A DNA stretch of 34,062 bases from a virus: IMG/VR virus record IMGVR_UViG_3300037488_002163, positions 1 through 34,062 of that record; one strand, 5' to 3'. How positions within the stretch are numbered: position 1 is the stretch's first letter; every line of letters starts with the position of its first letter. A program made the position numbers and the translations under genes. Below are positions 26,571 through 33,707 of this stretch, piece after piece. Under the pieces are notes generated by a model, which saw only the letters and a program-made list of their open reading frames with translations, was not told the origin of the DNA and did no database searches.

Positions 26571-26601
26571 ATCAATTTTCTCCTTTCGTTTACGTTTTGG
26601 A

Positions 26602-26886
26602 TCAGACCCTTAAAAGAATAAAAAACTTTAATCCGAAAGCGTGCAGATAAGCCTCAAGCGGGGCAATCAAAAATGGCGCTCCTCCGATCATTGCAGCGCC
26701 GTACCCGTTGCTATGAGCAAAAGCTGCTACCTGTCCTGCAACCGTCCTTATCAACTCCTCAGAGGGCATAGCGTTAAAAGTTAGAAGGCTTTTCAAAGCC
26801 TCCCTCTCAAGTGGGGGTAGGTTTACCACCCCCTTAGCCTCTTGCTCTTTTGTTGCTGGGTATTCGGTCAAATTTAAAATTTCCAT
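26602..26886 (-). CDS. conserved hypothetical protein (NLT..PAT / AMIGGAPFL family), 94 aa
   Basis: The start MEILNLTEYPAT and the blocks LKSLLTFNAMPSEELIR and AAMIGGAPFLIAPLE match a small family I have seen in phages and plasmids of Proteobacteria, without a known function. The glycine-rich AMIGGAPFL could bind a ligand. RBS AAAGGA lies about 9 bases upstream. It is second in the leftward early operon. Confidence 0.65.
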   Translation of the reverse strand: MEILNLTEYPATKEQEAKGVVNLPPLEREALKSLLTFNAMPSEELIRTVAGQVAAFAHSNGYGAAMIGGAPFLIAPLEAYLHAFGLKFFILLRV

Positions 26887-29505: not shown

Positions 29506-29528
29506 TTTTATAATATCTCCATTTTTAT
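29495..29528. repeat. tandem 17-bp duplication at a gene junction
   Basis: AATATCTCCATTTTTAT occurs twice without a gap (29495-29511 and 29512-29528). On the coding strand it repeats ATAAAAATGGAGATATT, so the primase end (…KMEIL) and the start of the next protein (MEILNF) match. Confidence 0.95.
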
Positions 29529-31973
29529 CGCAACATAACGTTGACGTGAACCTGCAAAATCAATGGGGAAATCTCCCTTTCTTGCCCCCTCTATACGTGC
29601 TAATAGATGTTTCCATCCGGCCTGCCAAGGCGAACCAACCATGATTTTTTTCAGCTCGGCGTTATTGTTTGCAATCAATAACTCGCCTTTGTCTATGCGC
29701 ACCCCCCATCTGGCGAGGTAAGATTTTGCTACCGTGTCGTTTATTTTATCGTCAATTTTTTTATACGTTGCTATTTGCACTAGCTCACCGATTGTCCTGT
29801 CTATATTTTCGGATCTGATGCGCGATTGAAGCGTAAAATTGAGCACTTGCATCTCGTCAGCTTCATCCGCTGGCTCTTCTTTTTGCGCCAGGTTTGAGAA
29901 TTCGTACGCAAGCACCATTGCCTCATCATCTGTTAATAAAATCTCATGTTGGGTGGCAACATATCCGGCAATTAATGCCCCTAACTGATCACCTAGACGC
30001 CGGTCATTTTTTAATTCGGCTATTTTTTCGCTTATTTTTTTAGCATTGCTGCGCACCGTTGGGATCATGTCAAACATACGACGTCGGAAGGCTGCGCAGA
30101 ATTCAGGCGTCAACAGGTTACCCGTGTCAACGTCGATCGTTTTAAAACCGACCGTTTTCCCTTTTAGATTTACAGTTGTAAAACGCGATAAATCCGCGCT
30201 TTGTCTTAGCGATGAATTAATGGACGACATTAAAAACATGGAGCGGGGTAGGTATTTAATGCATGCCCCGTCTTTGGTGCCTTTCACAACGTGGGCGCTA
30301 GAATCGCTTGATGCCTGGCGCGCAAACTCAATGATTTTCTGCATACGCTCTTGAGCGCCAACGGTGTCGCTCTCGGCTTCGTCAAATAAAACGGGGCGTG
30401 CATCACTTGCGAGATGCTGACGCAATCCGGCCTCAGTTGTCGAGCCCTGTACGCTCAAGCCTATGTCACCGACCAAGGGCGACAGAATGTTTGATTGTAT
30501 CCACGTTTTGCCGCTACCACGCGCAGCAGACAGCCAAACGTGAGGCCTCCACTCCAAAGCACCGCAGATGGGCGCAAGGGCTATCCATCCCGCCAACAAT
30601 CGGGCGTCATAATCGTTTTCAAAATTAAAACGACCTAGCAATTCGGTTATTTTTTGCGCGGCCTGGTCGTCTGCTTTTATCTCTGATATATCGGATAAAC
30701 CGTTTTTACGCTCATATATGTAATGCCCTGTGGACTCAGTGACGCATTTTTTAACGCCGTTTTCGATTATGGTTTTGCCACAATGGATTACTGTTTTTTT
30801 ATTATCGTACCAGGCGCCTATACCACGGATTTTTGACGGGTCGAACAGGCCGGTTGAGTAACTGTTCTCGACGAGGAAATTAAACGCTGAATCCCAATCT
30901 ATGGAGGTTTTAGAAGGGAAATTGAACAACCAGTAATCCAGCGGGGCTATCTGGATCAAATTCATTTTTTTCATCGAGGCAATTTTAATTTCCACAACGC
31001 TACCAACGGCGCGAGGCAAAACAAAAACAGAGCCGCCATCGTGCCCAAGGAATCTGAAAGGTTGAGTCTCAAGCGTCAATTCTTGGGCTTCAATAGGGGC
31101 TTCTAGCGGGGCTAGTTCTTTTCTTGGTCTTCCCTTAGGCTTCACGTCTTTTTGGTTCCCGTGCACCTTGTAGGCGGCTTTATAGTCGCCGCCGTGTTCG
31201 TGCTGAACGCACAGGTCAAAAGCGTTTACAGGTCTACCGCTCTCATTACTGCACAGCGGGTCAGATGCGTGATGTATCCAGCATCTTTGGTCATCAACGA
31301 TATAAACCCCTGCAATTTTTGTTTTACTACAAGGGGACAACCACCTGCGAAAAGATTTTTTTAAATAGCCGTATTTTTCAAGATTGTCAGTTAATGACGT
31401 TAATTTGCAGTATTCAGCAGATACAGACTCTTGTGGGGCTGCATAATTGATTTTAATTAAATCATCGGTGCCCGTTAGTACTGATATTAATTGTGGCTTT
31501 ATTGCGTCCCAGTCAACAACCAAGGACTCCATCCAGCCTGGGGCGTTAGCAATTTTTGAGACGTCGCCCTCAGATGTGTATTCGGTGCCTGTGTCAGGAT
31601 GTATAGAGGGGGGTAGCAGATCGTAGTGATTGCCTGCGCGGATTTCAAAGATGCATTTTTTGTTAAATGACAAAGAGCGGTAAATTTTATTTTTAGATCT
31701 AAAAATATAACGGTAATTTTTACCTATGATTTTCAGTGTTTTCGGTATTTCCAGGCCGAAATCCTCGGCAATACGCTCAAAATCATTAGGGGAATCAACA
31801 TCTAAGGAGATTAAATCAGACGCCCCTAGATGCACCGCCACCCCCACATCCTGAGCCGCCCATAGCTCGGGGGTGTCGTATGTTTTATTGTGCCACCCCT
31901 TTTCCAATGGCAGTTTGGTACCGAATTTTATTGGTATTAACTTCATCCCTGCGCTCAAATATTCAGCAACCAT
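29508..31973 (-). CDS. primase-polymerase (AEP) / helicase fusion, 821 aa
   Basis: The N-terminal 200 residues are an archaeo-eukaryotic-type primase: SLDVDSP (Asp 58 and 60) and PPSIH (123-125) are its metal and nucleotide motifs. Residues about 225-270 (IHHASDPLCS… FDLCVQHEHGGDYKAA) are a block often seen in phage primases. PKGRPRK (279-285) is an AT-hook. The second half is a P-loop helicase with SAARGSGKT (482-490) and PVLFDEAES. It would prime and unwind phage DNA. ATG 31973 with GGAGG 8 bases upstream was chosen over ATG 31988, which lacks a ribosome site. Confidence 0.87.
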   Translation of the reverse strand: MVAEYLSAGMKLIPIKFGTKLPLEKGWHNKTYDTPELWAAQDVGVAVHLGASDLISLDVDSPNDFERIAEDFGLEIPKTLKIIGKNYRYIFRSKNKIYRSLSFNKKCIFEIRAGNHYDLLPPSIHPDTGTEYTSEGDVSKIANAPGWMESLVVDWDAIKPQLISVLTGTDDLIKINYAAPQESVSAEYCKLTSLTDNLEKYGYLKKSFRRWLSPCSKTKIAGVYIVDDQRCWIHHASDPLCSNESGRPVNAFDLCVQHEHGGDYKAAYKVHGNQKDVKPKGRPRKELAPLEAPIEAQELTLETQPFRFLGHDGGSVFVLPRAVGSVVEIKIASMKKMNLIQIAPLDYWLFNFPSKTSIDWDSAFNFLVENSYSTGLFDPSKIRGIGAWYDNKKTVIHCGKTIIENGVKKCVTESTGHYIYERKNGLSDISEIKADDQAAQKITELLGRFNFENDYDARLLAGWIALAPICGALEWRPHVWLSAARGSGKTWIQSNILSPLVGDIGLSVQGSTTEAGLRQHLASDARPVLFDEAESDTVGAQERMQKIIEFARQASSDSSAHVVKGTKDGACIKYLPRSMFLMSSINSSLRQSADLSRFTTVNLKGKTVGFKTIDVDTGNLLTPEFCAAFRRRMFDMIPTVRSNAKKISEKIAELKNDRRLGDQLGALIAGYVATQHEILLTDDEAMVLAYEFSNLAQKEEPADEADEMQVLNFTLQSRIRSENIDRTIGELVQIATYKKIDDKINDTVAKSYLARWGVRIDKGELLIANNNAELKKIMVGSPWQAGWKHLLARIEGARKGDFPIDFAGSRQRYVAIKMEIL

Positions 31974-32049
31974 CTTCCATGCCTCCATTTTTATTAATTA
32001 CGAAATAAAGCGTAGTACACACTTTTTAAAAAGTAAAATCGAATTACAA

Positions 32050-32062
32050 TACATATAATAAC
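32050..32062 (-). promoter_or_regulatory. shared 13-bp block upstream of the primase gene
   Basis: TACATATAATAAC is identical to 27229-27241. On the minus strand it reads GTTATTATATGTA. It lies upstream of the primase gene as its twin lies upstream of the early operon. A clear -35/-10 pair is not seen here. Confidence 0.65.
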
Positions 32063-32081
32063 ACAATTTTTTCTGGGCGTG

Positions 32082-32111
32082 CAGTTATTGGCAGTTATTG
32101 GCAGATAATCC
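32082..32111. repeat. 10-bp tandem repeats upstream of the primase gene
   Basis: CAGTTATTGG twice in tandem (32082-32101), then CAGATAATCC. The unit differs from CACTTATTTG of the 27.2-kb repeats at two of ten bases. Confidence 0.8.
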
Positions 32112-32154
32112 CATGGTTTAGTTACTACAGACAGCAATGAGCACCTTTAAACAT

Positions 32155-32164
32155 ATTATATGTA
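32155..32164 (+). promoter_or_regulatory. third copy of ATTATATGTA
   Basis: Rightward copy of the 10-mer, followed by TTAAT as in the 27.2-kb promoter. It lies just before the 32164 palindrome. Confidence 0.5.
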
Positions 32165-32187
32165 TTAATCAATTTTAATTGATTAAT
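32164..32187. repeat. 24-bp palindrome
   Basis: ATTAATCAATT, TT, AATTGATTAAT: two exact 11-bp arms with a 2-base centre. It could be an operator or a cruciform-forming part of the origin. Confidence 0.8.
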
Positions 32188-32337
32188 TTTGTCGTTTTGG
32201 GGGTGAAACTACAAAATTTTTGTAGTAACTGTTTTTTGTAGTAAATTTTGTAGTAGCTGTGACGCTATATAAATCAAGCCTTCCCGAGGTTTTACTACAA
32301 AACTACAATTACTACACTTTTTAAACGCTTATATATT

Positions 32338-32396
32338 AAGAGATAATATATAATGCATATAATCAACTACAATATATACATTATATATTATCTCTT
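32338..32396. repeat. 18-bp perfect inverted repeat, AT-rich
   Basis: AAGAGATAATATATAATG (32338-32355) and its exact complement (32379-32396) flank 23 bases that hold an AACTACA site. Nearly all A/T, suited to easy melting or a cruciform. Confidence 0.9.
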
Positions 32397-32523
32397 TATT
32401 ATTATTATTTTTTGTAGTAAATGTAGTAAATGTAGTAAAGGGGTAAAAAGCCTATATATTGCAAGGGGTTACGAGTTACTACAGCGTTTTCCATTTTACT
32501 ACGTTTACTACGTGTTTTTCGAT

Positions 32524-32552
32524 TTGACACCGATTATATGTATACCTATAAT
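32524..32552 (+). promoter_or_regulatory. perfect consensus sigma70 promoter
   Basis: TTGACA (32524-32529), exactly 17 bases, TATAAT (32547-32552). Its spacer contains ATTATATGTA (32533-32542), and two TTACTACG sites end 11 bases before the -35 box. Such a perfect promoter must be under strong control. Confidence 0.93.
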
Positions 32553-32588
32553 GTAGCTAAGGATTTCAAAAACCAGAGGATTTACAGG

Positions 32589-32888
32589 ATGTTAACGCAA
32601 GATTTGAAAAGACTGGTGCTCGCCCGAAGAGAGGGAGAAACACTGCTCATTGCAGACGATAGAGTCCAATACATAGGCATGAGTGCGGCAGGGACGGCGC
32701 TAGTGCTTATCAATAGCGAGCGGGTACAGCTAGAGGTCAACTACAGCTATCCAATCAAAAACTACTACATTAGGCTTATGGCCTCCCCCTACGCTGACAA
32801 ACACCCAGAGATAAAAATTGCGATAATAGCGCCACCAAGCGTGGTTGTCCTGCGCAAAGAACTGCTAGGCCGCCGACGTCGTGTCTAG
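32589..32888 (+). CDS. CsrA/RsmA-like translational regulator with central insertion, 99 aa
   Basis: CsrA dimers bind GGA motifs in mRNA leaders and change translation and stability. Here residues 9-21 (LVLARREGETLLI) match the CsrA start LxLTRrvGEtlxI, and residues about 75-95 (IKIAIIAPPSVVVLRKELLG) match VrIGInAPkeVaVhREEI, including the key Arg. CsrA is usually 60-65 residues; here about 35 extra residues (LINSERVQLEVNYSYPIKNY and beyond) lie between the two halves. ATG 32589 (GAGG 9 bases upstream) is right because an upstream ATG at 32538 lies inside the promoter. The end is basic (RRRRV). Confidence 0.78.
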   Translation: MLTQDLKRLVLARREGETLLIADDRVQYIGMSAAGTALVLINSERVQLEVNYSYPIKNYYIRLMASPYADKHPEIKIAIIAPPSVVVLRKELLGRRRRV

Positions 32889-33156
32889 CTCATTAGATTT
32901 TTTTTTTACAATGTGGGAATTTGACCCTCACAAGACAAGGGTAGAGCTGCTTAAAATGTGCGCGGGGTTATCGTGTGTTTTGGATCCTGAGGAGTTTGAG
33001 CAGTACACAAAAGCATTGATTAAAAAAGACGCAAAAAAGTTAAGATTTTTATTGTATTACTCAGCGCTGATAATCGCAGAGCTGAGCATAAAAGAAATGA
33101 GCGAGAAAGAAATTAAAGAAGCATTTAAGGAAAACTTTGGAGGAATCACCAGTTGA
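32881..33156 (+). CDS. hypothetical protein, 91 aa (or 81 aa)
   Basis: Starts at GTG 32881, overlapping the CsrA-like stop, or at ATG 32911 (MWEFDPHKTRVELLKMCAGL). The core is helical (DPEEFEQYTKALIKKDAKKL, then LIIAELSIKEMSEKEIKEAF), with no recognised family. Neither start has a good ribosome site, so coupling to the gene upstream is likely. Its stop overlaps the ParB-like start. Confidence 0.6.
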   Translation: MSSSLDFFFTMWEFDPHKTRVELLKMCAGLSCVLDPEEFEQYTKALIKKDAKKLRFLLYYSALIIAELSIKEMSEKEIKEAFKENFGGITS

Positions 33157-33707
33157 TCGCGCCCTATCACGCCGAAAATTTTGAGCTAAAAAAACTTGAT
33201 GAGCTAAAACCCAACAAAAGAAATTCACGCAAGCACCCCCAAAAACAGGTTGATCAACTATGTGCTTCGATCCTTGAGTTTGGTTTTACTATTCCAATTC
33301 TAATCGACGAGGAATGCACAGTATTAGCAGGTCACGCACGCCTAGAAGCTGCCAAAAAGATCGGGCTTGATGTTGTGCCAACTATCACCGCCGCTGGCTG
33401 GAGTGAAGCCCAAAAAAAGGCTTATCTAATCGCTGACAATAAACTGGCGGAGAATTCAGAGTGGGATTTTGTAATTTTAACGGCTCAGCTAGAAGAGCTT
33501 GAAACTGAAGATTTTAACTTTGATTTTTTAGGGTTTAGCGAACAGCTAGACAAAGAAACAAACGATGAAAACGTTTCAGAAGGATTAATAGAAAAAGCTT
33601 TTAATGATGATTTTAATATTTTAATTACATTCAAAGAGGAAGAAGAGTGCAGGTCTCTTTTTGAAGAGTTAAAAGAAAGGGGGATGTCTTGCAAAATTAT
33701 CACGTAG
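33153..33707 (+). CDS. ParB/Srx-fold protein, 184 aa
   Basis: Residues about 12-95 carry the ParB N-terminal pattern: LDELKPNKRNSRKHPQKQVDQL, GFTIPILIDEECTVLAGHARLEAAKK with the GHxRLxAA box, and ADNKLAENSEWD. The second half is acidic and helical, and there is no ParB HTH domain, so this is not a partition protein. Stand-alone phage members act in DNA modification or processing, some with NTPase or nuclease activity. The start is TTG 33153 in a TTGA overlap. The following ABC-type gene suggests joint action. Confidence 0.85.
   Translation: MIAPYHAENFELKKLDELKPNKRNSRKHPQKQVDQLCASILEFGFTIPILIDEECTVLAGHARLEAAKKIGLDVVPTITAAGWSEAQKKAYLIADNKLAENSEWDFVILTAQLEELETEDFNFDFLGFSEQLDKETNDENVSEGLIEKAFNDDFNILITFKEEEECRSLFEELKERGMSCKIIT

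Follow-up and report, generated by a model that had tools for sequence, protein, structure and literature searches.

What reads a dense run of 7-bp words in non-coding viral DNA, and what purpose would such a run serve? The question is raised by a stretch of 34,062 nucleotides, hereafter the window (IMG/VR virus record IMGVR_UViG_3300037488_002163, positions 1 to 34,062), in which the word TGTAGTA, or TACTACA on the other strand, recurs within the 549-bp intergenic stretch 31989-32537, between a minus-strand primase-helicase gene and a plus-strand CsrA-like gene. The initial annotation of this DNA offered two candidates, iterons for a phage initiator or a multi-site operator for a repressor encoded outside the window. 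Our comparisons strongly support the first, as homologous genes are accompanied by arrays of the same layout made of other words, and array and C-terminal domain co-vary. We therefore consider it very probable that the array serves as an iteron replication origin and that the neighbouring Prim-Pol primase-helicase binds it through its C-terminal domain.

The site array and its four clusters

Exact TGTAGTA occurs six times on the plus strand of the intergenic stretch (32221, 32237, 32249, 32413, 32422 and 32431) and exact TACTACA four times (32123, 32293, 32310 and 32477), together with two TACTACG variants (32497 and 32506) and three AACTACA variants (32207, 32301 and 32365), giving 10 exact copies, 12 sites with TACTACG and 15 with AACTACA added. 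The initial annotation had counted twelve sites, six in each direction; its forward six stand, whereas its reverse six consist of four exact copies and two TACTACG words. The three AACTACA variants and the exact 9-base period that it described (32413/32422/32431 and 32497/32506) were both recovered. Its statement that the density is unmatched elsewhere also holds, since the window has 14 exact copies in all and 10 of them fall in the intergenic stretch, at 18.2 per kb against 0.119 per kb in the rest of the window, and coding DNA does not carry the motif at equal density. Dinucleotide shuffles of the stretch had a mean of 0.24 exact copies, with none of 20,000 attaining 10, and GTAGTAA, counted 11 times, compares with a maximum of 6 for any 7-mer across 2,000 shuffles. 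The array is also conserved in a related phage: contig L006, the sole near relative retrieved with the window's own primase-helicase protein and approximately 95% identical, retains all sites except the outlying minus-strand TACTACA at 32123-32129, where it reads TATTCCG, with indels and many changes around the lost site.

Setting aside 32123, a lone CGTAGTA at 32011 and the AACTACA words at 32207 and 32365, we can assign the sites to four clusters, each with three members. Cluster A (32207-32255) contains plus-strand TGTAGTA at 32221, 32237 and 32249, with AACTACA 32207 in front of it, and cluster B (32293-32316) contains TACTACA 32293, AACTACA 32301 and TACTACA 32310, at spacings of 8 and 9 bp. 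On the other side, cluster C (32413-32437, plus strand) holds TGTAGTA at 32413, 32422 and 32431, spaced by 9 and 9 bp, and cluster D (32477-32512, minus strand) holds TACTACA 32477 and TACTACG 32497 and 32506, spaced by 20 and 9 bp. Between B and C lies a 96-bp centre (32317-32412), 85% AT, which is the putative melting region and carries an inverted repeat (32335-32361 and 32373-32399, 27 nt, 93%) whose loop holds AACTACA 32365. The steps across the array (16, 12 / 44 / 8, 9 / 103 / 9, 9 / 46 / 20, 9) match the layout typical of the family described below.

Two smaller features lie outside the clusters: a palindrome at 32164-32187, ATTAATCAAT-TTTA-ATTGATTAAT, the loop of which is TAAA in L006, the reverse complement of TTTA, and TATTGGCAG-type words at 10-bp steps (32086-32109), close to where the primase-helicase gene starts. 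The best matches to IHF sites in the array spacers carry two mismatches and we make no claim for them, and an Rfam search of 31500-33000 returned microRNA matches only, all sub-threshold.

Arrays beside homologous genes and their joint change with the C-terminal domain

The proposed initiator is encoded within the window by the primase-helicase gene (29508-31988, minus strand), the array being 5' of it. The 826-amino-acid product combines a Prim-Pol domain (residues 9-152) with an SF3-like AAA+ helicase; it matches profile PF09250 (E 8.7e-15) and, over its helicase half, phrog_35358 (DNA primase, E 2.1e-100), which is also matched by all 39 of the 39 members of a family alignment (A2). Another alignment (A1), made of this protein and six phage homologues, was used to retrieve relatives from viral contigs, yielding at least 600 candidate stretches, of which 575 were confirmed and 80 kept. 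Seventy-nine of these (L138 was a duplicate) and the six phages make up a viral set of 85 loci.

We tested whether any single 6-mer was enriched in the 500 bp flanking each gene, relative to dinucleotide shuffles and with a cut-off of z > 5. The 3' flank was above this cut-off in 54 of 80 testable viral loci and the 5' flank in 2 of 75 (L006 and L130), against 22 of 1328 control 500-bp windows from the same loci, some of which are displaced arrays by eye; many viral loci are near-identical, so these counts are not independent, and 36 distinct array layouts entered the spacing-template test considered below. Applied to 80 loci taken from contigs of bacterial genomes, the test found enrichment above this cut-off in 21 of 76 3' flanks, 1 of 70 5' flanks and 3 of 677 control windows. 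At a weaker cut-off of z > 3.5, the 3' side was positive in 61 viral and 28 bacterial loci, and some of the loci below z = 5 carry weaker arrays.

The words of these arrays differ from phage to phage (CCTAACA, CGTAACA, TGTTACA, GTCAACA and CGTCAGA, with TACTACA in the window) and most can be written ending in ACA or AGA, while the layout is shared. Typically, a left half of three sites (9 and 11 bp apart), approximately 31-45 bp and two or three further sites (9 bp) is followed by a centre of approximately 80-107 bp and a right half of two sites (8-9 bp), approximately 41-46 bp and 1+3 sites (12-14, 11 and 9 bp). In 48 of 51 arrays the AT content of the centre exceeded that of the whole locus (means 0.56 and 0.43).

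A scan of viral contigs for TGTAGTA itself returned at least 120 loci, most of those listed being apparent coding repeats by eye. Mixed-orientation GTAGTA-type arrays were seen in four contigs (L015, L045, L073 and L123). The primase-like proteins of the first three are VapE-like in Pfam, and these loci were not counted as the same family because the family profile matches no open reading frame (ORF) in the 11 loci searched. The region 26600-26712 of phage BPP-1 (L212) has an AT-rich stretch bordered on both sides by pairs of TTTGCCTCG and CGAGGCAAA, stepped by 9 bp, approximately 470 bp beyond the bbp29 primase gene on its 3' side.

Which part of the protein could read the array? Array-linked genes carry varied N-terminal modules, namely Prim-Pol (the window and L141), Zn_Ribbon_Prim (L174 and L207) and CHC2 (L145), and the reader is therefore expected in the portion that they have in common, residues ~310-826. 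Residues 290-826, as modelled by AlphaFold2 (predicted local distance difference test score, pLDDT, 88.8), resembled Cch of the staphylococcal cassette chromosome mec (SCCmec; Z 14.5, root-mean-square deviation 7.0 over 422 residues) and, in the same comparison, MCM-type AAA+ helicases; Foldseek matched it to SaPI5 PriRep1, the NrS-1 primase-helicase and poxvirus D5-type helicases. The predicted iteron-binding domain is the winged-helix-like C-terminus (residues 681-826, encoded at 29511-29948, minus strand). Modelled alone (146 residues, pLDDT 90.1), it gave nothing below E 1 in Foldseek, and its top match in structural comparison was a weak one to the C-terminus of SaPIbov1 Rep (8tch, Z 4.8, root-mean-square deviation 3.4 over 86 residues), with several winged-helix DNA-binding domains ranked lower. 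Searching PDB sequences with the whole protein gave no match, and the A2 profile gave weak matches only, above E 0.05.

Comparing near-identical phages in pairs, we found that the array and the final ~300 bp of the gene change jointly, while the DNA on either side is conserved. Between L190 and L165 identity is approximately 0.96 in the helicase part, 0.56 in the final 270 bp of the gene, 0.53 in the array and 0.91 beyond it. Fourteen pairs showed this swap-like pattern, which we read as one or few events because nearly all belong to one background group. Repeating the analysis on largely the same contigs, and hence not independently, we found array identity below 0.7 in 27 of 101 close pairs, none of which had a domain identity of 0.85 or more. 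The other telling pair is L142 and L143, where identity is 0.63 in the array, 0.97 in the downstream DNA and 0.81 in the domain DNA: the iterons are TGTAACA in one and of the TGTATAC type in the other, at many shared positions, and the domain shows few changes, its amino-acid changes clustering in the predicted wing and last strand. Across 38 representatives, domain identity fell with iteron mismatches when helicase identity was allowed for (partial Mantel r -0.168, p 0.025), in a run with hand-corrected registers from which L146 and L170 were excluded.

A putative iteron origin and its alternatives

Judging from precedents and from the layout, we propose that the winged-helix-like C-terminal domain would bind the 7-bp word TACTACA, which reads TGTAGTA on the complementary strand. 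The sites form two arms that mirror each other, with A and B to the left of the AT-rich centre and C and D to its right. Binding at both arms would load helicase rings facing outwards, the centre would then melt, and the Prim-Pol domain would start both forks, making replication bidirectional. A widespread family of phage primase-helicases would thereby gain a testable origin.

Whether the family represents a large and so far unnamed class of phage origins, in which winged-helix domain and four-cluster iteron array are exchanged as a single specificity cassette, we regard as an even question. If so, phages that share a backbone would move to another replication-compatibility group either through exchange of a cassette of ~600 bp or through a concerted change of all iterons with a few domain residues, and the window would be a member of the class with the word TACTACA and an array 5' of its gene. 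L142/L143 and L190/L165 are natural near-identical pairs for finding which residues read which bases.

Several results weigh against the proposed origin. The array of the window is 5' of its gene, whereas in most array-bearing relatives it is 3', and on that side 26 of 80 loci of the viral set and 55 of 76 bacterial genome loci remain below z = 5. A TACTACA-type array also stands 3' of a distant homologous gene in a Fibrobacter assembly (L333, 5750-6030), and yet the C-terminal domain of that protein ranks 156th of 160 in similarity to that of the window, so that either this type of word arose twice or the code between protein and word is loose. The first partial Mantel test, for which the registers had been set automatically, was null (r 0.016, p 0.41), and for this reason we prefer the phage pairs as evidence over the Mantel statistics. 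A switch in GC or TA skew at the array was absent in the 15 co-directional loci among 16 measured (p = 0.93 and 0.52). Finally, phage P4 was compared in two ways: hhalign found no match between an 86-sequence family alignment and a single P4 alpha sequence, and when the spacing of the P4 ori served as template, 4 of its 6 sites were matched in the window, a score reached in 0.70 of gap shuffles. Over the 36 distinct arrays, at least five sites fit this template in 16, and L142 fits at all six, which none of 200 shuffles reached.

The alternative that survives best, though we think it improbable, is that a repressor or a regulator of the CsrA operon binds TGTAGTA and controls two divergent promoters, with no role in replication. 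In the window the genes flanking the array are indeed divergent, and 11 bp separate the end of cluster D from a perfect sigma-70 promoter (32524-32552, plus strand, 12 of 12 consensus bases, 17-bp spacer) immediately past it. In most array-bearing relatives, however, the array is 3' of the primase-helicase gene rather than between divergent promoters, the genes past it vary, and it co-varies with the primase C-terminal domain; a repressor encoded outside the window, as initially suggested, explains neither this co-variation nor the constant link to the primase-helicase gene. Because the last cluster ends so close to the promoter, the array could act as an operator in addition to being an origin, and we conjecture that its occupancy may also affect the CsrA-ParB-like operon.

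Somewhat less probable still is a stem-loop origin of the pRN1 kind, with the central palindrome as the recognised element and the TGTAGTA words secondary. The central hairpin is strong in the window (z -6.7) and in L006, and the available part of PMC4234260 proposes stem-loops 3' of such genes for pRN1 and phage BIP-1; however, central hairpins are no feature of the family (median z -0.28, below -2 in 6 of 43 centres), and L006 alters one base of the window's stem yet retains the iterons. A partition, packaging or recombination site that adjoins the primase gene by coincidence is the least probable reading and a very unlikely one, for although a ParB-like gene lies downstream, the arrays concentrate next to the primase-helicase rather than elsewhere in the same loci and have it as their constant partner, the gene by which all loci were chosen.

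The genes on the other side of the array begin with the CsrA-like gene (32590-32888, plus strand), whose start at 32590 is inferred and for which an alternative ATG exists at 32538; the product of 32538-32888 matches PF02599 (E 1.5e-6) and phrog_9500 (E 1.5e-4). Behind the perfect promoter, the region 32538-33707 comprises this gene, a 91-amino-acid ORF and the ParB-like gene (33153-33707), the latter assigned by profile matches. A phage-borne CsrA homologue adjoining a putative origin is worth attention. Elsewhere in the window, a 63-amino-acid ORF at 557-748 matches HTH_Tnp_1, a transposase helix-turn-helix family (E 7.8e-6).

Relation to known origins

In the open-access literature, judged by title and the start of the abstract and with subscription papers largely outside, we found no description of the arrays of this phage family. 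Known systems offer partial parallels. The origin of pRN1 adjoins a protein with Prim-Pol, SF3 helicase and winged-helix parts, and differs in requiring a stem-loop, iterons not having been found there according to the available text of PMC4234260. The same text reports no origin-like repeats in BIP-1, which is near-identical to BPP-1, and proposes a stem-loop 3' of the gene. In SCCmec, as far as the available part of PMC7581432 goes, the C-terminal domain of the helicase Cch2 binds iterons just downstream of the Cch2 gene. The Cch/Cch2 origin resembles our proposal in that short direct repeats are recognised by the C-terminal domain of a helicase encoded next to them, just upstream, and differs in having, as far as the same text goes, three AAGTG iterons only, and separate primase proteins.

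The putative origin of the window would work like those of P4 and of the Staphylococcus aureus pathogenicity islands and related phage-inducible chromosomal islands (SaPI/PICI). In P4, both ori and crr contain type 1 repeats, those of crr ending 45 bp away from where the alpha gene has its 3' end, and alpha is described as binding the repeats of the origin through its winged-helix domain (PMC4234260, section 18). P4 and the window share short iterons of mixed orientation, steps of 9-11 bp, gaps of ~43 bp and a fused primase-helicase, and the P4 word GGTGAACA ends in ACA, as does the word of the window. The P4 ori and crr repeats are, however, ~4.7 kb apart, and the P4 primase is of another type.

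In PICIs, two sets of iterons flank an AT-rich region 3' of pri-rep, an arrangement which is functional on a plasmid and which, in the available part of their paper, the authors call unique among known bacterial replicons (PMC6092414). Clusters A-B and C-D of the window likewise flank its AT-rich centre, the helicase core is of similar fold and the C-terminal domain is weakly similar, whereas the array is 5' of the gene, the iteron word is another one and the N-terminus is a Prim-Pol domain. Given the opposite position of its array relative to the gene, and since no link in sequence to P4 alpha was found, we did not file the window as a member of either group. An origin organisation like that of PICIs, called unique to them in the part of that paper available, would now also have a place in phages.
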